64,000 nt of DNA, taken from a virus. The notes beneath the pieces were generated by a model, which was not told where the DNA came from, made no database searches, and saw nothing but the letters and a program-made list of their open reading frames with translations. The stretch lies in the IMG/VR virus record IMGVR_UViG_3300042453_005121, positions 62,001 through 126,000 of that record, one strand, 5' to 3'. Below are positions 4,667 through 62,915 of the stretch, piece after piece; the stretch's first letter is position 1; each line of letters begins with the position of its first letter. The position numbers and the translations under genes are program-made.

Positions 4667-5218
4667 TTGCTCAAGAACCCGGATGGAACCCCGTACAAGC
4701 CCACTGGAAGTCTGGAGCAGTTTGATCCGGACAATCCGGAGCGCTGCCTGTGGAACGATTGGGATGCGGAGATCATGAAGATATACGGATCGCCCGTGTT
4801 CTACTACGAGGTGTTCATACAGACCGGTTCCCTAGACAAGTTGTACAGGGAGGACCGGGGCAAGATATGGTCCAATAATCCCATAACACTGTACGCCAGT
4901 TACGAGCCGGTGGTGGGGCAGAATTACCAGAGCGCGTTCGGCATAGACTCGCCGGATGAAATCATATTTGATTTTAACTACAGAGATGTCGTGAAGAGGA
5001 TAGGTCATCCCCCAAAGATAGGATCAAGGATTTTCACGCCCCACAGGAACGAGGACTGGGTGATCATCCAGCGGAATGTCGGCGAGCAAATGCTCTGGAG
5101 TCAGATGCGGATGCAGGTATTGTGCCAGCGTTTCCAGGAGAGCGTCACGACCGGCGAGGGCAAGGTCACGCAGAAGAAGCCGGATTTTGATTTGAACGAT
5201 TTGAACAACCGCTCATGA
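4667..5218 (+). CDS. Neck protein, T4 gp14-like (183 aa)
   Basis: Residues about 35-150 follow the layout of T4 gp14: a short helix leading to YGSPVFYYEVF, then LDKLYREDR, a Trp-containing segment, YEPVVGQNYQSAFGI, FDFNYRDVV and a closing beta region with GSRIFTP and DWVIIQRNVG. In T4, gp14 joins the head-completion neck to the tail. The gene starts with TTG, identified by the very strong AAGGAGGAG eight bases upstream. The adjacent gp15-like, sheath and tube genes on the same strand support the call. The C-terminus (VTTGEGKVTQKKPDF) is specific to this relative. Confidence 0.72.
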   Translation: MLKNPDGTPYKPTGSLEQFDPDNPERCLWNDWDAEIMKIYGSPVFYYEVFIQTGSLDKLYREDRGKIWSNNPITLYASYEPVVGQNYQSAFGIDSPDEIIFDFNYRDVVKRIGHPPKIGSRIFTPHRNEDWVIIQRNVGEQMLWSQMRMQVLCQRFQESVTTGEGKVTQKKPDFDLNDLNNRS

Positions 5219-5362
5219 TTCCAGTCTGATGTTTTTGTTCTCGTGCACGTCCCAGAAAACGACCTTGGGAAACTTTGGTTTGGGAAGCGTCGTTCTTATT
5301 CCCTCTTTTATGAACGTTCTCTTCTTTGATCCGTTGTGCTTCTTTATGGGGAGATGTCTCAT
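5213..5362 (-). CDS. Small basic protein, 49 aa
   Basis: This 49-codon frame reads from an ATG at 5362 (MRHLPIKKHNGSKKR) to a TGA at 5213-5215. Its ATG overlaps the stop of the upstream 284-residue gene as ATGA (5359-5362), the same coupling used by many genes here, which is the main reason to accept it. The protein is Lys/Arg-rich with a C-terminal VVFWDVHENKN segment. It overlaps the end of the plus-strand neck gene by six bases. No function is known. Confidence 0.6.
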   Translation of the reverse strand: MRHLPIKKHNGSKKRTFIKEGIRTTLPKPKFPKVVFWDVHENKNIRLES

Positions 5363-6213
5363 TTCTTTTTAGATGAGAACAGTCTTCGCGGTATTTTTGT
5401 CCTGATCTTTGGGGGTGGGGTGGAGGCTCTTTTTTCTATGGTCTTATCCACTCCTTCATATCCTTCCTTGGCATATGCCCCGGAAAGCACCTTGTATTTG
5501 TTGTCGAAGGAGAGGTGCTTGTGATCACGCCAGACGTGAGTTGCTATCTTGTGTCCGTAACTATTTATTTTTCTTTCTCTTCCTTCCCTCTCCGACCTCT
5601 CCTCTTCGGTGAATGGGATCATTTCCGCGTTGTTCTTTTGGGGCAGGAACAACACTTGTCCGTAGGGCTCGCCCTTTCTAAAGATGTGGAGCTCGCCCTC
5701 CCTTGGTGCCTTGAACACTACGAAGAATATTCTGGACCACCATCGTTGTATGTGTCCGGGAACGAGGCACGGAACCGTTCCTGTGTCGTCGGTGTAGAAC
5801 CTTGGGTGCGGTTCGGTGCGTAACACGTATCCTTCGGGCGGCTCCATGTCCAAGGCACTAGACATTCCGTAGTGACCCGGAGCGAAACTCATCATCGGCG
5901 GAGTGATCTTCTTTGGCTCGTCGCCGGTCTGCGTCGTTCCTTCTTCATTGATCATCCACGGTTCTTCAGAGAAGTCGCCTTCGAAAACAAGTTCCCCATT
6001 GATCCTTTTGACGCGGCACTCGCTATTGTATGGATATACGAGTTCATGGCCGTATGTGCTTCCTTCCACGAAAGGAGGACAGTGCCACGGCTGGGGCTCG
6101 GCACCGTTCTCGTGGTCGCGGTCCTTGCCGGACCAGCCCGGTATCTGAAGCCGTATGGGCCTGGGGGGCTGGCCGTTGTGCCACGTCCGGTATTTGACCT
6201 GAATTTTTTCCAT
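5359..6213 (-). CDS. Conserved-type hypothetical protein, resembles DUF6065 (284 aa)
   Basis: The protein starts MEKIQVKYRTWHNG at the ATG at 6213; a TTG six bases earlier is possible. It is rich in Trp, Pro and His. Features such as WHCPPFVEGSTYGHELVYPY and the later segments SFAPGHYG and GYVLRTEPHPRF recall the DUF6065 family of phage and bacterial proteins; this is recalled from memory and should be tested. The C-terminus is very basic. It is the upstream partner of the small 49-residue gene through an ATGA overlap. A virion or modification role is possible but not shown. Confidence 0.7.
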   Translation of the reverse strand: MEKIQVKYRTWHNGQPPRPIRLQIPGWSGKDRDHENGAEPQPWHCPPFVEGSTYGHELVYPYNSECRVKRINGELVFEGDFSEEPWMINEEGTTQTGDEPKKITPPMMSFAPGHYGMSSALDMEPPEGYVLRTEPHPRFYTDDTGTVPCLVPGHIQRWWSRIFFVVFKAPREGELHIFRKGEPYGQVLFLPQKNNAEMIPFTEEERSEREGRERKINSYGHKIATHVWRDHKHLSFDNKYKVLSGAYAKEGYEGVDKTIEKRASTPPPKIRTKIPRRLFSSKKK

Positions 6214-6244
6214 AATCAACTAGATATTGTATCGAGGTAAATGC

Positions 6245-7228
6245 ATGCCTGTCAATCCCGGCAACCACCAGGACAAGAAACTGAACGAGTGCGACTCAAT
6301 ACCGCCTGCGGAGACCAGCAGGAACAGGGAAGGGCCCTCTAGGGATTGTCCGGGTCCGGAGGGCCTCGGTCTAGGGTGGGTGGAGAGAGCCGCCAAGTCC
6401 AAGGTCGGCGTCGGAAGAGAGGCCCAGTGCGATCCCATGCAGACGGGTCAAATTGTAGAAGATGTAAACAATCCCGAACGCCAAGTTTTATACAGGTATT
6501 CAAAAAGTCTTCGCGGGTGCGACGAAGCAATGCTTGATCTTTTCAGCAATCTGGTTGTTCTGGACGAGGATGGAAAGGCCCACAAGGTACCGATCATATG
6601 GGGCACTCAGGAAAGGGCCGTGGCTTGGATACTTCAGGACAACGTACGCAAGGATGGAAGTCTGGTTGTGGAGCGTATAAGGCTTCCCATGATGACGATA
6701 TATTCTTCGGGAATTGAGTTTGACCAAAGCAGGTACACGTATCACAAGGCGTTGGACTTGATGAGGAGATTGGACCCCAAAGGAAGGCCGGGATTGCACG
6801 GCAGCGAGAAGTTTGAGAGAGACACGGTTTTCGGCGTGGCGCGAGGAATTCCCGTGAATAAATCATACACGCTCATAGCCTGGACCATGTACATGGAGGA
6901 CATAGATCAAATTTTGGAACAGGTCATGCTAAAATTTTCTCCAGTTGCATACATACGTGTGCGAGGAGTCAATTGGGAGACTTCGGTGTCCCTGGATTCT
7001 GTGGCAAACAACGTGGATTATGAGCCCGGCGATCAAAACCAAAGAATCATAAAATTTGAGTTTAATTTGACCGCAAGATCATACATACCACAACCAATGG
7101 TCCGTAACAAGTCGGTCTTGGGCACGAAAGTGGATATCCACAACAGTGTTGAGGAACAGGACATTACGGAGGTTTTGGCGAGGATAGAGGACAGCGTCAA
7201 AGACGTGGAAAGGCAACTTAATGATTGA
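6245..7228 (+). CDS. Tail completion / sheath stabiliser protein, T4 gp15-like (327 aa)
   Basis: From about residue 80 the protein follows T4 gp15: YRYSKSLRGCDEAMLDLFSNLVV, then HKVPIIWGTQERAVAW, a Leu-Pro strand before MTIYSSGIEFD, and a later helix-strand unit (TLIAWTMYMEDIDQILEQV). gp15 caps the tail tube and sheath and joins them to the neck. The ATG at 6245 has GAGGTA upstream. The first 65 residues are a Pro/Gly/Cys-containing extension absent from T4 gp15; an internal ATG at 6437 would remove it, but its ribosome binding site is poor. It overlaps the next small gene by eight bases. Confidence 0.78.
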   Translation: MPVNPGNHQDKKLNECDSIPPAETSRNREGPSRDCPGPEGLGLGWVERAAKSKVGVGREAQCDPMQTGQIVEDVNNPERQVLYRYSKSLRGCDEAMLDLFSNLVVLDEDGKAHKVPIIWGTQERAVAWILQDNVRKDGSLVVERIRLPMMTIYSSGIEFDQSRYTYHKALDLMRRLDPKGRPGLHGSEKFERDTVFGVARGIPVNKSYTLIAWTMYMEDIDQILEQVMLKFSPVAYIRVRGVNWETSVSLDSVANNVDYEPGDQNQRIIKFEFNLTARSYIPQPMVRNKSVLGTKVDIHNSVEEQDITEVLARIEDSVKDVERQLND

Positions 7229-48792: not shown

Positions 48793-49557
48793 ATGCGAGC
48801 GACATTGATGGCTCTATTTTCAATGTTGATTTTCACATCCTCTTATGCCGGGACAATAGACCCTTCTACCCCGGATGAAAAGTACAGGATTTACGGAGAA
48901 GAGCACGGATGCGTTGTGAGATTGAAGGGCAGATGCTTTTGCAAGAAAGAAAAGGGCAAAGAGCATGATTTTGTGGCTTCTGCGGTTGTTATCAAGCCGC
49001 ACTGGGTAATAACGGCGGCTCACGTTGTCAAAGAGACAAAAAATGTTGTCGTTAACGTCGGCAAAAAGAACTACGAAATAAAGAAAATCATAGTGAAAGA
49101 TGGGTACGACGAAGATATCATAGGCCTAAATGACATAGCCGTCGCGTATTCGGAAGAAGATTTCGGATTGGACTTTTATCCCGAACTTTACAGCGAAAAG
49201 GATGAAGTCGGCAAGGTTGCGAGTATTTGCGGATATGGTTTGACGGGTACCTTTTCCAGCGGTGCCGTTAGGTCCGATGACAACAAAAGGGCAGGATCTA
49301 ACATCGTGGACAGAATAGACAGGAACTGTCTTGTCTGCACTAATATGGGCGGAAAGAAAACTAAATTGGAATTTCTGATAGCCAGCGGAGATTCGGGCGG
49401 AGGTCTGTTTATTGACCAGAAGCTTGCGGGAATAAATTCATTCGTCATGTCTGATGATGAAGGCCCCAACTCCGACTATGGTGACGAATGCGCTCACACA
49501 AGGATATCTCAGTATTTAGATTGGATTCTGGAACAGACCGGCTCAGCAGAAAGATAG
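48793..49557 (+). CDS. Secreted trypsin-like serine protease (254 aa)
   Basis: A signal peptide is likely (MRATLMALFSMLIFTSSYA), then the trypsin triad: H77 (VITAAHVV), D114 (LNDIAVAY) and S201 (SGDSGGGLF), with a typical cis GYGLTG loop between. Six Cys outside the active site suggest disulphides and an extracellular or periplasmic place of action. Start choices are the ATG at 48793 or at 48808; TATATAAA ends three bases before the first. Its end overlaps the convergent gene by 49 bases. A phage-coded secreted protease is unusual. Confidence 0.88.
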   Translation: MRATLMALFSMLIFTSSYAGTIDPSTPDEKYRIYGEEHGCVVRLKGRCFCKKEKGKEHDFVASAVVIKPHWVITAAHVVKETKNVVVNVGKKNYEIKKIIVKDGYDEDIIGLNDIAVAYSEEDFGLDFYPELYSEKDEVGKVASICGYGLTGTFSSGAVRSDDNKRAGSNIVDRIDRNCLVCTNMGGKKTKLEFLIASGDSGGGLFIDQKLAGINSFVMSDDEGPNSDYGDECAHTRISQYLDWILEQTGSAER

Positions 49558-50834: not shown

Positions 50835-51539
50835 TTAAATTCTTTCGTTTGAAAATTCCTGAGTGAAAAATTGCTCCACGAATGGAGTTATCGCAGACCT
50901 GTAATATATCTTGTCGAAATCAAATGGAATGTCGTCTCCGTAAATTTTTTTGACCCAAGGAGAAAGAAGCAGGTAGAAATATGATATTTCTCCGTTCGCA
51001 CTCCACCTCTCAAGATTTTTTTTGTTCGCCGAGAAGGAATCGTAGTCCAATAAATTTTTGGATTCCATGAAAAATCGTGTATTTTTGAGTTCAGTTATGA
51101 CCTTTGATTCTTTGGTTGAAACTCCGATCTGATCAGATGTGAGAGCCTTGTTCAATTTCTTTCGGTACATTTTCTGCCATATTTTCCATCTCTTCCATGC
51201 CTTTTCGCCGACCAAGCAGTGGGGTTCTATCAACGCATGAATGTCTCCCTCTTTTATTGATTTCAATATTTGAATTTGCGACCGCACATATGTTCTGAGG
51301 TCCTTGTCTTCCAGAACTCCCTTCATTTCCCGGGCGAGTTTGTAGCAATATTTGAAAAGAGTTGATTTTCTAGGGTCGGTGTTTTTCTTGAGTTTCGCGA
51401 AAGATTCCTTTGGAATCTCTCTCCGACATTCTTCCTCCCAGATTATGGCGATCTTGAAGGCTTTCGCCTCCATATCGTTCATCTTGTATTTGATGATCGG
51501 TTCAAGTTCGCTCATTTTCCCGTATTGCAAAATGCTCAT
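50835..51539 (-). CDS. Hypothetical helical protein (234 aa)
   Basis: The product is helical and charged (YKMNDMEAKAFKIAIIWEEEC, EKAWKRWKIWQKMYRKKLN), with a beta-containing C-terminus (GEISYFYLLLSPWVKKIYG). The start at 51539 (MSILQYGK) is chosen; 51515 (MSELEP) is equally possible and neither has a strong ribosome binding site. No family was recognised. It ends two bases before the epimerase. Confidence 0.6.
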   Translation of the reverse strand: MSILQYGKMSELEPIIKYKMNDMEAKAFKIAIIWEEECRREIPKESFAKLKKNTDPRKSTLFKYCYKLAREMKGVLEDKDLRTYVRSQIQILKSIKEGDIHALIEPHCLVGEKAWKRWKIWQKMYRKKLNKALTSDQIGVSTKESKVITELKNTRFFMESKNLLDYDSFSANKKNLERWSANGEISYFYLLLSPWVKKIYGDDIPFDFDKIYYRSAITPFVEQFFTQEFSNERI

Positions 51540-51602
51540 GTGTAGGTATGATCTGTTTCCGGAAACTTGAACTAATATAACCTGAAACCTGAAAACGAAC
51601 AA

Positions 51603-52040
51603 CTGTAGAACATTTGCGGTGAGATGCTGCTTGATTTTTCGGGGGGACCCGAACCATGCCAGTTAGAAACTCCTGGTAGTCGTCCTAAGCGTTGTGTCGA
51701 GAGGCACATGAGGTAAACCAATAACAAAGGGCTGTATCAGTCTCGCGAAAGACTTTTTGGCTAGGCGAAAGCCGTGCGTTTTTCCCGTGAAACCCGACAG
51801 TAGTTTGATCTGTCAAGGGGCCTGGGTCACGGTCCATAATGGACAAAAAATCAATAAAGTCGTATAAGCGGATATGAAGGACGGGAAGTAGGCGGTCAAG
51901 CAGAAAAGACGGAATGTCCGAACTGAGGACTGAACTCGTCTGAGATTTTCGGTTATCTAGAGTATATTCTAGATAACTATAATCTTAAGATTAGTAGGGT
52001 CCAAAGGGAAGGACCCCCTTCTATAAACACATAATTGGAT
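51603..52040 (+). ncRNA. Putative structured non-coding RNA region upstream of the polymerase genes
   Basis: No frame longer than 60 codons is open in either strand, although the rest of the window is almost fully coding. Strong hairpins follow one another: 51638-51653 (TTCGGG/CCCGAA), 51739-51754 (AGTCT/AGACT with loop CGCGAA), 51759-51773 (GGCT/AGCC with loop AGGCGAA), 51796-51814, 51952-51977 (ten-base stem), palindrome 51980-51993 and 51997-52016. Two loops carry GCGAA. I could not recognise a group I or II intron core, tmRNA, RNase P or tRNA. The strand is chosen from the following plus-strand genes. Confidence 0.4.
51952..51977 (+). other. Perfect ten-base hairpin in the putative RNA
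   Basis: GTTATCTAGA pairs with TCTAGATAAC across a six-base loop GTATAT. It lies just before the 14-base palindrome 51980-51993 and a stem 51997-52016. It may be part of the RNA's 3' domain or a processing/termination signal; no T-run follows directly. Confidence 0.6.
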
Positions 52041-52045
52041 AATGC

Positions 52046-52249
52046 ATGAACACAGATCATTTGGTCCCAAAAAGTCCTAGTAAAAGCAATAAAGATGGTA
52101 GAACTACCGACAAGAAACTCAAACGGTATCTCAGGAGGATATCCGATAGAAAAGGAATATCTTACAAGGAGGCAATTTTAAAGTTTTATGGGGTTGAATC
52201 ATTGAAAAAACTAGATGAACGACTGGTTCATTCTCTTTTCAAAGATTGA
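52046..52249 (+). CDS. Small basic protein (67 aa)
   Basis: The product (MNTDHLVPKSPSKSNKDG) is strongly basic, with a helical part (RYLRRISDRKGISYKEAILKFYG). The opening HLVPKSPSKSN vaguely recalls an HNH start but the rest of the motif is absent. No ribosome binding site is visible, but TATAAAC occurs about 18 bases upstream. It directly follows the hairpin-rich region and precedes the polymerase gene. It may be a remnant of an intron-type endonuclease or unrelated. Confidence 0.5.
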   Translation: MNTDHLVPKSPSKSNKDGRTTDKKLKRYLRRISDRKGISYKEAILKFYGVESLKKLDERLVHSLFKD

Positions 52250-52287: not shown

Positions 52288-53598
52288 ATGACCGATTTTG
52301 TTGAATTCCTGCCGCGTCTCAAGGGCAAGGACGTATACTTCAGCCTGAACAAGGAAAATCCGGACTGGAACGAGTCGGTTGGCGTTGAGCTTTCCTTTCG
52401 TCACGGCGGAGAGTCGCTGACGTTGTCCTTGGATGACGTGGATCAGTCTTCTTACCTCGCCTCTTCTCTTCATCATGTTCTGGACGGCGGAAACGCGCTG
52501 ATCTCTTGGTGCGCCAAGGATGTTTTTTCTTTTTTGAAGGGCCGCACCGGAATCGGATTGGAGCTGAAAGGGAAAATTTATGATCTTTCCGTCATATCTT
52601 CGTATCTCGGAATGGAGGCGGACAAGCCAAAGACGTTCAGGGAGGCTGTTGCTCTCCTGAAGTCCTGTTTGTCCGATCCCGGCTGGGAGCAATTCAAGTC
52701 TTTTTATTTCGGAGTATATGAACCACTTTTTTCTGAGGTTCTTCCCGAAATAGAGACGTGCTGTCTCGTGGACAACAAGAGAAGGAGTTGCGTCTACGCC
52801 ACCTACGTGATTGAAGGTCAGGTGAACGGAAGACTCAGGACCGTCAAGACAGGGCGGAATTCTTACAATCCTCATTCAATGGGTCCTGACGACAAGCGTG
52901 ATATCAGGCCACAGGACTACGACGACGTTTTTTTGTATTTTGACTACCGAAACATGGAGGTCAACGTCCTTCAATGGCTGTCGGGAGACGGGGATTTGGC
53001 AAGAGTGCTGGAGTCCGGTTCTGATCCATACAAGGAGATATGGCGGATCATCACCCGGCAGGAGCCCACAGAAGGCCACAGAAAGATATGTAAGGACATA
53101 TTCCTGCCCGTGGTATTCGGTCAAGGCAAATCTTCCTTGGCGGCCAAATTGAAAATTTCGGAAGAAATTGCTTCCAGACTCATACATAGCCTTGGTAAGA
53201 CATTTCCCGTTGCCTTTGACTGGGTCAACTCCCAGTCAACCAATGGCAACAACACGGCGACTGACGCCTTCGGCCGCAAAAGGACTTTTGACGGCCGGGA
53301 GCAGTACAAAGTTAAAAACTTTTGTATCCAGTCCCCAGCGAGCATGATCTGTTTGAGAAAACTTGTGCGTCTTCACGAGGCTCTGGCCTCTAGGGCGAGC
53401 ATATGTTTTCACGTACATGATGGATATTACGTCCTTTGCAAGAAAAGCGAAATCAATTCAATTGCGGAACTCGGAATCAGAACTCTCGAGGAGGACGATT
53501 CCATGTTTCCGGGTCTCGCAATGCGTGTCTCCTGCAGGGCGGGAGACAGGTTGGATGACATGCGTTCTATAACACTAACAAAAAGGGTTTCAATATGA
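52288..53598 (+). CDS. Divergent family A DNA polymerase (436 aa)
   Basis: Polymerase motifs are in order: the 'thumb' entry GQVNGRLRTVKTGR, motif A FDYRNMEVNVLQWLSGD (D219), motif B R265-x3-K269 ... F277-G278 and motif C FHVHDGYYV (H377, D378, with Gly where E. coli Pol I has Glu). The position equal to Pol I Phe762 is Leu273 and that of Tyr766 is Phe277. The first 110 residues look like an inactivated 3'-5' exonuclease domain. It is much smaller than Pol I and its activity is uncertain. A T4-type family B polymerase was not seen in the window. It overlaps the next gene as ATGA. Confidence 0.8.
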   Translation: MTDFVEFLPRLKGKDVYFSLNKENPDWNESVGVELSFRHGGESLTLSLDDVDQSSYLASSLHHVLDGGNALISWCAKDVFSFLKGRTGIGLELKGKIYDLSVISSYLGMEADKPKTFREAVALLKSCLSDPGWEQFKSFYFGVYEPLFSEVLPEIETCCLVDNKRRSCVYATYVIEGQVNGRLRTVKTGRNSYNPHSMGPDDKRDIRPQDYDDVFLYFDYRNMEVNVLQWLSGDGDLARVLESGSDPYKEIWRIITRQEPTEGHRKICKDIFLPVVFGQGKSSLAAKLKISEEIASRLIHSLGKTFPVAFDWVNSQSTNGNNTATDAFGRKRTFDGREQYKVKNFCIQSPASMICLRKLVRLHEALASRASICFHVHDGYYVLCKKSEINSIAELGIRTLEEDDSMFPGLAMRVSCRAGDRLDDMRSITLTKRVSI

Positions 53599-54149
53599 AG
53601 ATACACGATTCTTTCCCCGTGACAGAGGAGGAGTACCTCCTTCTAGACAGCAAGTTCGGCGAACTTTGCGAGTATCAGGCTTGGCAACTCATAAAGAAGA
53701 ACACGAGAAACAACCACACCGACAATCAAGAGGACATAGCCCAGGACATGCGGATAGCTTTGTTGCGGGCGGCGTCCTACTACAAGCGGCAGTGCTACAT
53801 AGAAGCCTGCATTGATTTGTGCAAGAAGCATGCGAAAGACCCAGTCATAAAGTCTGTTGTGAAGCAACTCGCCAACCTGTGGAAGAACAAGACCAGACAC
53901 GGAGCCAATAAGCAGAAATTTGGACCTCACCAAGAAAAGATGCTTGACAAGATCGTGAGGGTTCTGCTTCCCATCAAGGAACGGCCCGACAAGAAGGCCT
54001 CGCTCAGGATAGACACCAAGTTCACGACTTATTGCAAGGCCATAACATGGAATGCGCAGAAGTCGCTCGGCAAGAGGATAACGAGGGAGAAGGGCATACG
54101 GACCGGAATGGTTTCTTTGTCCGAATATGATTATCTGGGCGGTAATTGA
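53595..54149 (+). CDS. Sigma-like transcription protein, possible second sigma factor (184 aa)
   Basis: The product contains an acidic helix with DNQEDIAQDMRIALLRAA and later FTTYCKAITWNAQKSLGKRI, the spacing of sigma region 2 in late-transcription sigma proteins; a shorter relative of gp55 lies at 11754-12284. It is coupled to the polymerase gene as ATGA. Homology is weak, so this is an inference from pattern; it could also be an RNA- or DNA-binding protein of another kind. Confidence 0.5.
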   Translation: MKIHDSFPVTEEEYLLLDSKFGELCEYQAWQLIKKNTRNNHTDNQEDIAQDMRIALLRAASYYKRQCYIEACIDLCKKHAKDPVIKSVVKQLANLWKNKTRHGANKQKFGPHQEKMLDKIVRVLLPIKERPDKKASLRIDTKFTTYCKAITWNAQKSLGKRITREKGIRTGMVSLSEYDYLGGN

Positions 54150-60159: not shown

Positions 60160-60585
60160 ATGGCTACAAAAAGACAGCAGGAGAGAAAGAAGAAGGCAAG
60201 GGAGCAGAAGGCCAAGGCGAGGGTTGAGGCTAGGAGGCACAAGTTGGCCTTGGTGAGGAAGGACGAGCGCAGATCGGTCGTTTTGAATCACAAGTTCAGA
60301 GACAAGATCAAGCCGATCGTCAATGATCCGGAGGCCAAGAAGAGACTTGAGGAGGCTGAGAATCGCCGTAATATAAAGAAGCTTGAAAACAACGCCGAGA
60401 TATTAAAAGCTCTTGAAGAGGAGTACATGAGGGAAATGGAGCGGAAAAAGACCCTGAATCAGAACCTAGAGGCTGAAGGACATCTGACACTGGAAGACAA
60501 ACTCGGGGCCTTGGAGGGTAAGGCGAGGGCCTCCATGGAAGGCGAGGAGCGGGAGACCGGCCGCATTGATCTGACCCAAAGTTGA
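60160..60585 (+). CDS. Highly charged coiled-coil protein (141 aa)
   Basis: Almost every residue is Lys, Arg, Glu or Ala in long helices (MATKRQQERKKKAREQK to AENRRNIKKLENNAEILK), with a Glu-rich C-terminus. It starts after AAGGAATTAAA, one base after the previous stop. It resembles DNA-binding or scaffolding helix proteins of phages but has no named family. Confidence 0.65.
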   Translation: MATKRQQERKKKAREQKAKARVEARRHKLALVRKDERRSVVLNHKFRDKIKPIVNDPEAKKRLEEAENRRNIKKLENNAEILKALEEEYMREMERKKTLNQNLEAEGHLTLEDKLGALEGKARASMEGEERETGRIDLTQS

Positions 60586-60614
60586 TTTGTTCTAAAAAAA
60601 TCTGCTAAAGCCTA

Positions 60615-60643
60615 TTGACTTCTTATACGATATAACCTATAAC
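60615..60643 (+). promoter_or_regulatory. Sigma70-type promoter before gp32
   Basis: TTGACT (60615-60620) and TATAAC (60638-60643) are separated by exactly 17 bases, a good match to the bacterial consensus. The predicted start is near 60650, with an untranslated leader of about 57 bases that ends in GGAG before the gp32 ATG. It fits early or middle transcription by host sigma. Confidence 0.6.
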
Positions 60644-60706
60644 ATGAACATGCGACGCAGATGCGACGCTTGAACTTGAGATAACCTTTAACAACGGAGA
60701 ACTAAC

Positions 60707-61721: not shown

Positions 61722-62915
61722 ATGGCCAAGGCGAAATCAAAGAATGAGGATTCGGTCCTGGATGAAATCCTCAATTCCACCGGAGGCGAGACACTCCGCC
61801 ATGCCGGTCAAGTACCGTATTATGTGGACACCGGCAATCTAGCGATCAACTTCGCCTGTAGCGGAAAGTTTATGAAGGGCGGATTCCCCGGCGGCAGGAT
61901 CATAGAGGCCTTTGGCCCCGAGGCGTCCGGAAAGTCGCTTCTTGGTTATTGTTTCCTGGGAGCGATACAAAAGCAGGGTGGAATCGCCGTGCTCCTTGAT
62001 TGCGAGAGGTCAAGCGGCAGCGATTTCGCGGAGCGGTGTGGTCACGTTGATCCCGACAAGCTACTTGTTTTTGACCCCGTGACGCTCCAGCAGGTGGAGA
62101 AGAAGATTCTTGCCGTCGTCAAGGCGATCCGGGCCAAGTTCCCCAAGAAGCCCATCGGGATCGTCTGGGACAGCATCGGCGTCAACCCGACCGACAGGGA
62201 ATGGAGCGAGGTGGAACTCCCTGAGAATGCCACCAAGGCCCAGATTGACGCCGTGGGTAATGAGCGCCCCGGCGAGAGGGCCAAGTTCGCCAATAAGATT
62301 CTCCGCAGCCTCAATCCTTTTCTCAACGACAACGACGCCACCCTGTATGTGATCAATCAGGTTAGGAAGAAGATCGGCGTAATTTACGGCAACGACGAGA
62401 CCACCAGCGGTGGCGGCGAGGCCCTTAAGTTCTACGCCTCGCTCAGGTTCAGGACAGGAGCTCCCAAGGCCTTCCAAGACAAGAACACCAAGCTCTCCCT
62501 CGGGGTCAACATGACCATCGTCAATAAGAAAAACAGGCACTTCACGCCCGGCGTGAAGATTGAGAATGTGCCTCTTTTCTTTGAATCGGGCATTAATCCG
62601 CTCGGGGGTCTTATGGATGCCCTTTTGATGGCCAAGAGGGTGGAGCCCGCCAAGGGGGCCGGAAAATACACGGTGCTTTCCCCGTGGAACGGGGGCGACG
62701 AAGAAGCGGTTTTCCAGCAGTCCAAGTCCTCTCCTTTTGACGCGGACATTCTCATGAAATATCCGCTTCTGGTGGACGCCGAAAGTTCCGACGAGGTGAA
62801 GGAATACATCAAGGAGTGGTCGGACGCCATAGCACTGACCACCAGCGACAGCGTCGAGCAGATCGCGACCGAACAGGACGTCGGTCACCTCCTCGGGAGC
62901 AAGGGAGATGATTAA
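61722..62915 (+). CDS. uvsX: UvsX/RecA-like recombinase (397 aa)
   Basis: Walker A GPEASGKS (65-72), Walker B IGIVWDSIG (about 156), and the C-terminal loop RFRTGAPKAF are those of UvsX and RecA. It forms filaments on ssDNA for strand exchange and recombination-dependent replication. The ATG at 61722 follows AAAGGAACA; an in-frame upstream extension to 61638 would cross the hairpin. It overlaps the next small gene by eight bases. Confidence 0.92.
   Translation: MAKAKSKNEDSVLDEILNSTGGETLRHAGQVPYYVDTGNLAINFACSGKFMKGGFPGGRIIEAFGPEASGKSLLGYCFLGAIQKQGGIAVLLDCERSSGSDFAERCGHVDPDKLLVFDPVTLQQVEKKILAVVKAIRAKFPKKPIGIVWDSIGVNPTDREWSEVELPENATKAQIDAVGNERPGERAKFANKILRSLNPFLNDNDATLYVINQVRKKIGVIYGNDETTSGGGEALKFYASLRFRTGAPKAFQDKNTKLSLGVNMTIVNKKNRHFTPGVKIENVPLFFESGINPLGGLMDALLMAKRVEPAKGAGKYTVLSPWNGGDEEAVFQQSKSSPFDADILMKYPLLVDAESSDEVKEYIKEWSDAIALTTSDSVEQIATEQDVGHLLGSKGDD

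Follow-up and report, generated by a model that had tools for sequence, protein, structure and literature searches.

Large structured RNAs and leaders of replication genes

Large structured RNAs of phages are few and mostly unexplained. ColE1 RNAII is a folded RNA of roughly 550 nt that acts with a family A polymerase. GOLLD and ROOL, found in phages and prophages, are large and highly structured, contain pseudoknots and have no known function (PMC12286853). OLE RNA has been linked to the protein OapA through an immediately adjoining gene (PMC11332333). In phage T4, gp43 and gp32 are autogenous repressors that act through leader structures in their mRNAs, that of gp32 being a pseudoknot (PMC3014915).

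The locus described here lies in a stretch of 64,000 nt (the window) that comprises positions 62,001–126,000 of the IMG/VR record IMGVR_UViG_3300042453_005121 (150,762 bp). Comparison with related phages makes it secure that a non-coding gap of the window holds a real, conserved structured RNA on the + strand. This RNA is ~460 bases long, with ~13 helices in a folded part at 51627–52017. Like GOLLD and ROOL, it is large, highly structured, pseudoknotted and phage-borne. However, many GOLLD members exceed 800 nt, and GOLLD and ROOL occur in tRNA islands rather than beside replication genes. There are no tRNA genes in the 64-kb window, and among the homologous loci only one (L067) has such a gene, ~5 kb away. 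The likeness to OLE and OapA is that of a large RNA adjoining the gene of a co-occurring protein, but OLE is found in Bacillota chromosomes rather than phages, and OapA is a membrane protein whereas the putative partner here is small, basic and helical. With the gene 43 and gene 32 operators of T4 (the latter pseudoknotted) the RNA shares its setting, in the position of a structured leader of genes for phage replication. In the gene 43 operator the hairpin has only 16–18 bases and lies ~40 bases before the start codon, so that the present RNA is more than 10 times larger, and the polymerase here belongs to family A. ColE1 RNAII is of similar size and likewise goes with a family A polymerase, but at this locus there is no R-loop or origin evidence.

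The initial annotation had proposed a covariance search with Rfam models. With cmscan against Rfam 15, no family matched at the gathering score (window and 11 homologous loci) or at permissive settings (window and the distant homologue L066), and the models for GOLLD, ROOL, OLE and HEARO were among those without a match. The RNA is undescribed in the sense that it is absent from Rfam 15 and has no counterpart that we found in the literature, a statement that does not cover candidate RNAs published outside Rfam. It works most like the T4 replication-gene leaders or the large RNAs of the OLE, GOLLD and ROOL type, and by the tests applied it is a member of none of them.

The gap and its coding context

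As the initial annotation had it, the window is nearly all coding, and the interval 51603–52040 has no frame above 60 codons and precedes a small basic protein and a family A polymerase. All of this is borne out: ORFs of at least 60 codons cover 94% of the window, the longest ORF inside the interval has 53 codons, the gap ranks second in size, and the two genes follow on the + strand at 52046–52249 and 52288–53598 (PF00476). The limits of the gap were drawn too narrowly, however. For the neighbour on the minus strand a TTG at 51602 had been taken as the start, whereas the homologues of this protein begin MK/MNELEP.., equivalent to ~51516. With the true start at about that position, the non-coding stretch extends over ~51517–52045, and the RNA with its promoter reaches to 51525. 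The earlier reading needs mending, in that the RNA lies on the + strand, its 5' end is further upstream and its 3' end is a long-range pseudoknot. The divergent neighbour itself (50835–51516, minus strand, MxELEPIIKYKM..) is conserved, RNA-less relatives included, and has no match in Pfam or PHROG.

Homologues and distribution

There are 12 distinct homologous sequences in 14 IMG/VR phage records, all from uncultivated phages. The first relatives were reached via the adjoining polymerase (62% and 57% identity), with the gene order kept and the gap alignable. The set was widened by scanning 2.9 million viral contigs for patterns and by searching with polA and the 184-aa protein encoded downstream. 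It consists of a close set (the window, L003, L004, L018 = L013, L021, L038 and L047) and a distant set (L066–L070, with a polA identity of 43% for L066); a relaxed pattern built on both recovered the identical contigs and no others. Wherever the slot is entire the gene order is constant, with a divergent gene (~216–255 aa), the RNA and the small basic ORF, and polA and the 184-aa gene come next wherever the contig reaches that far.

No homologue of the RNA was found by pattern scan in 84,980 prokaryote genomes, where two GTDB matches proved to be chance, with no likeness beyond the pattern itself, nor in 50,697 named phages, including DNA searches with two homologues. One covariance-model match of 25.8 bits, in a 343-kb relative (G001), was discarded as it falls within coding sequence. 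In the pre-polA gaps of L072 and L005 the core was not detected, even in searches without filters. The gap of the RNA-less relative L072 (5021–5660) is long and has a folding z-score of −3.1; without a core match, it possibly contains a different structured RNA.

Secondary structure

The inferred transcript segment extends over 51559–52022 (+), with covarying helices in the 12 distinct homologues. The promoter gives the inferred 5' end, and the 3' limit follows from the final conserved strand of the pseudoknot. All helices are on the + strand. P1 closes the main body by pairing CTGCTTGA (51627–51634) with TCAAGCAG (51896–51903), and relatives have different complementary strands at this place (TGTTTGGT/ACCAGACA, TTTGATCT/AGATCAAA and TTAATCTTC/GAAGATTAA, with arms picked by eye). 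The hairpins P2 and P3 follow. Inspection of relatives finds a hairpin at the position of P2 (TTCGGG/CCCGAA, 51638–51653), while P3 (GCCAG/CTGGT, 51658–51677) has the covarying stems CAAGGTC/GACCTTG, CGGGGA/TCCCCG and TGGGG/CCCCA. P4, formed by TCGTCC (51680–51685) and GGACGG (51879–51884), closes the junction of P5 (with P6) and P7; four of its six pairs are doubly changed in a structure-blind alignment, and cross-pairing of anchor windows gives p = 5e-5. P5 (51688–51733) is short in the window (AGC 51688–51690, GCT 51731–51733) and has its support in the relatives, by inspection (AGCCTTT/GGAGGCT). Its inner hairpin P6 (51694–51707, loop GAGA) has compensated pairs in the structure-blind alignment.

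In the window itself P7 is weaker than any other helix, with only 4 bp between TCGC (51743–51746) and GCGG (51868–51871), and it is paired in only 46% of the structure-blind alignment. In most relatives it has 6–8 bp (ATTTAGC/GCTAAAT, ATTTAAC/GTTAAAT, ACTTTAA/TTAAAGT, CCTGTA/TACAGG). It runs over a purine-rich loop into P8 (GACTTT 51751–51756, AAAGTC 51856–51861), a near-invariant U-A run outward of which the pair types vary. P8 closes the junction of P9, P10 (with P11) and P12. Two hairpins with GCGAA-type loops had been pointed out in the initial annotation, at 51740–51755 and 51764–51773. Both can be drawn, but only the second is conserved, as the tetraloop hairpin P9 (GGC-GAAA-GCC); the first competes with the conserved P7 and P8, has no counterpart in relatives and was rejected. 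P10 (CCGTG..ACCC/GGGT-CACGG, 51785–51832) holds P11 (51796–51800 with 51810–51814), and the two form the most conserved core, for which the covariance model R1 is further evidence. Swaps occur in both, CCGUG/CACGG for CCAUG/CAUGG in P10 and GACAG/CUGUC for GAUAG/CUAUC or GACGC/GCGUC in P11, and over all 12 sequences 97% of P10/P11 cells are paired, compared with 23–41% in slid controls. The small hairpin P12 (TCC..GGA, 51833–51843) has 95% of its cells paired. Outside the body lies P13 (51952–51977), the perfect ten-base stem already noticed in the initial annotation (GTTATCTAGA/TCTAGATAAC). A stem is present at the same place in 11 of the 12 sequences, its counterparts (arms picked by eye) being quite different in sequence from that of the window.

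Folding and covariation

The + strand folds at −138 kcal/mol, relative to −119.4 ± 5.8 for dinucleotide shuffles (z −3.2, 0 of 100), and the − strand has a z-score of −2.5. In 9 of the 12 homologues the margin over the shuffles is larger for the + than for the − strand. Single z-scores among the homologues are moderate (−0.9 to −4.8), which would leave room for an absence of any RNA function, with chance hairpins, a decayed gene or a palindromic site acting at the DNA level. This is scarcely tenable in view of the strand preference and of the compensatory changes found across 12 sequences in many helices and the pseudoknot. A decayed protein gene is also what the initial annotation had named as refuting its candidate unknown structured RNA, but the homologous stretches have no common reading frame and so are not a decayed gene. 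Its candidate has thus gained support, since the alignment of related phages, which it had suggested, contains strongly covarying stems.

The main counts come from a structure-blind test, in which seven sequences were aligned with MAFFT and the structure was derived from the window alone. This structure pairs 86% of the cells, compared with 33–48% when slid. Doubly changed pairs number 17, against 9.8 ± 1.9 in shuffled alignments, none of 500 shuffles reaching 17, and the covariation score is 0.305 against 0.179 ± 0.017. From the same alignment, RNAalifold recovers P3, P4, P6 and P8–P12, with 20 compensated pairs. In the anchor-set windows of the pseudoknot, P4 and P7/P8, a genome's own strands pair better than genome-swapped ones (permutation p = 5e-5 each). 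Because relatedness inflates such p values, they are taken as support and not as probabilities. The cross-genome arm test and the G-U count are only supporting, as their arms were picked by eye; the weight is carried by the anchor-window test and the structure-blind counts.

The pseudoknot and the U-tracts

The core loop between P11 and P10 contains the strand GGGGCCT (51817–51823), which pairs with AGGACCCC (52010–52017, one bulged A) near the 3' end. The latter lies inside the conserved AGGGA..CCCC (52005–52017), in which AGGGA is present in 11 of the 12 sequences and is GGGGA in the remaining one. Across the homologues the pairing takes the forms GGGGCCU/AGG(A)CCCC, GGGGCGU/ACGCCCC, GGGGUAUA/UAUACCCC and AGGGUAUA/UAUACCCU. 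Compensated changes are found at pair 1 (G-C, U-A, A-U), pair 5 (C-G, U-A, U-G) and pair 6 (C-G, G-C, A-U, U-G). The CCCC strand can alternatively pair locally, with GGG at 51997–51999 or with the conserved AGGGA, making this alternative pairing an obvious candidate for a possible switch.

P9 is flanked by U-tracts on both sides in all 12 sequences (51754–51758 and 51779–51783 in the window), the partner strand of P8 is A-rich, and the P9 loop is of the GNRA type in the close set. Such an arrangement is compatible with a U.A-U triple helix involving the A-strand of P8, but this is inference only. That such a triple helix around P9 stabilises a primer or origin RNA, or an RNA subunit of the replisome, in the place of a primase must be counted a long shot.

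Neighbouring genes

The first gene after the RNA encodes a small basic protein of 67 aa (52046–52249, +), the putative RNA partner. Its conserved core is RxxRR..R.A.RKGI.Y.EAI..FY, and its model has three helices (core pLDDT >90); there is no Pfam match and no fold match in the PDB. Of 13 records tested, the nine that bear the RNA all have the protein, and it was not detected in the four RNA-less relatives. This tracking is seen within one clade and could also stem from shared ancestry, and the absence of so short a protein may reflect divergence beyond detection.

An HNH gene ~2.5 kb downstream (protein of 92–111 aa) was also considered as a partner and rejected, because one RNA-bearing record lacks it and two RNA-less relatives have it. 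Tracking with the RNA is therefore not shared by all genes of the neighbourhood. A small HNH protein this close to a large structured RNA would suit the RNA of a mobile element, be it a group I or II intron, a retron or an OMEGA/HEARO guide RNA, but the RNA and the HNH gene each occur without the other, and the RNA has a single fixed locus per genome. It interrupts no gene, since it sits between divergent genes with no + strand exon upstream, and its neighbours (the small basic protein and polA) include no reverse transcriptase, large nuclease, IscB or TnpB. The initial annotation could recognise no intron core, RNase P, tmRNA, tRNA or retron, and neither could the models: no Rfam match was obtained for any such mobile-element family or, up to E 10, for a group I or II catalytic core, and RNase P, tmRNA, tRNA and SRP had no match by covariance model or ARAGORN. 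An origin in a mobile element is accordingly very improbable.

The second gene encodes a compact family A DNA polymerase of 436 aa (52288–53598, +; PF00476, E 7.7e-22). As the sole polymerase A in the 150.8-kb record, which has no polymerase B, it is apparently the sole replicase. Its motif C is HDG, not HDE. In two RNA-less relatives the slot before polA is occupied by a protein gene. In L078 it is an archaeo-eukaryotic-type primase (659–1951, PF22548, 2.3e-8), and in L079 (LR756511.1, 595 kb) a 387-aa gene on the minus strand (5204–6367) without Pfam assignment, the product of which has an IHDS motif resembling single-subunit RNA polymerases. DnaG-like primases are present in three RNA-less relatives, while none was found in ~1.05 Mb from the window's genome (G000) and 11 other RNA-bearing records, which are incomplete; the search had no positive control. 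With the RNA immediately 5' of the only DNA polymerase found, these occupants of the slot raise the question of whether it acts directly in replication, as a pre-primer or origin RNA like ColE1 RNAII or as a replisome RNA subunit in place of the primase-like gene. We consider this unlikely. One 75-kb RNA-less relative is also without a DnaG-like primase, another primase type or that of the host could serve, and the absence of a primase cannot be checked by synteny in these fragmentary records because primase neighbourhoods are not shared. Were the RNA nevertheless to prime replication, it would stand in a protein's place.

The third gene (53595–54149) encodes a 184-aa protein that is 73–89% identical among RNA-bearing phages. 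It has a weak match to Pfam Sigma70_r2 (E 0.1), but a fold search gave no match, leaving the label of sigma factor unproven.

Promoter, transcript and inferred role

A consensus scan places a sigma70-like promoter (TTGCAA-16-TATGAT) at 51525–51552 on the + strand, reading toward the RNA, and 11 of the 12 homologues have a comparable one (TTGCNN or TTGACT, 16–17 nt spacing, a −10 box like TATGAT or TACAAT). Transcription is predicted to start at ~51559, as judged from the promoter and not from a measured start. A reading of TATAACCT near 51576 as a late promoter was dropped, as it is not enriched upstream of other genes. Between the RNA and the next ORF no terminator was recognised (a scan of the window only), and the next start codon lies 11–54 nt beyond the pseudoknot in all 12 sequences (27 nt in the window). 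It speaks against control of the next ORF that several distant members have no clear Shine-Dalgarno sequence on which such control could act. With a promoter upstream, a co-directional gene close downstream and no terminator between, the RNA has the position of a leader, on sequence evidence alone.

Comparison of the homologues thus demonstrates helices, pseudoknot, promoter motif, gene order and tracking of the small protein, while the function of the RNA is inferred. The promoter, the spacing and the invariable position favour a leader. The proposal that this new large structured RNA leads the transcript of the replication operon and is bound by the polymerase, the small protein or both is held at an even chance, in the absence of expression data. 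A host-type, sigma70-like promoter would drive the + strand RNA as the first 450–560 nt of a transcript that runs on, by a read-through that is unproven, into the genes for the small basic protein and the polymerase. The RNA would fold into a closed multi-helix body (P1–P12) and a 3' hairpin (P13), with its last conserved bases folding back on the core loop to give the pseudoknot. Binding of the small basic protein and/or the polymerase is inferred, as is a competition between the pseudoknot and a local hairpin that the CCCC strand can form a short way 5' of the start codon. Pseudoknot formation may in this way make expression of the replication genes depend on the state of the ribonucleoprotein, by analogy with gp32 and gp43 of T4 and their smaller leaders.

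At 450–560 nt and ~13 helices, the RNA far exceeds known phage translational operators in size, and a trans-acting particle fits these figures at least as well. It may be a stand-alone RNA that is cut or terminated before the genes and serves as a ribonucleoprotein scaffold, a ribozyme or an RNA-only assembly, with the basic protein as its dedicated partner. Because of the size and complexity of the RNA this is nearly as likely as a leader, and we hold it as a tentative but substantial possibility. Its helix number, tetraloop, pseudoknot and invariant core resemble those of large ornate RNAs, and the tracking of the small protein recalls OLE, tied to OapA via the adjacent gene (PMC11332333). 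However, the 3' end has no recognised terminator or processing site, an ORF always follows within the short distance given above, and no copy was found away from the polA operon. The setting is specific and lends itself to testing: the RNA is always placed ahead of the replicative polymerase gene, and the presence of the small basic protein follows that of the RNA. A leader of this kind would be far larger than the known operators of phage replication genes; a trans-acting RNA would mean a new ribonucleoprotein, for which a likely protein partner is already at hand.

Other features of the window

Upstream of the locus, the interval 48793–49557 encodes a trypsin-like serine protease with a signal-peptide-like start and the motifs TAAHVV and GDSGGG; it is conserved, with 51% identity in G008. 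The biggest gap of the window (60243–60706, 464 nt) is located directly 5' of an ORF resembling gp32-type single-strand-binding proteins.
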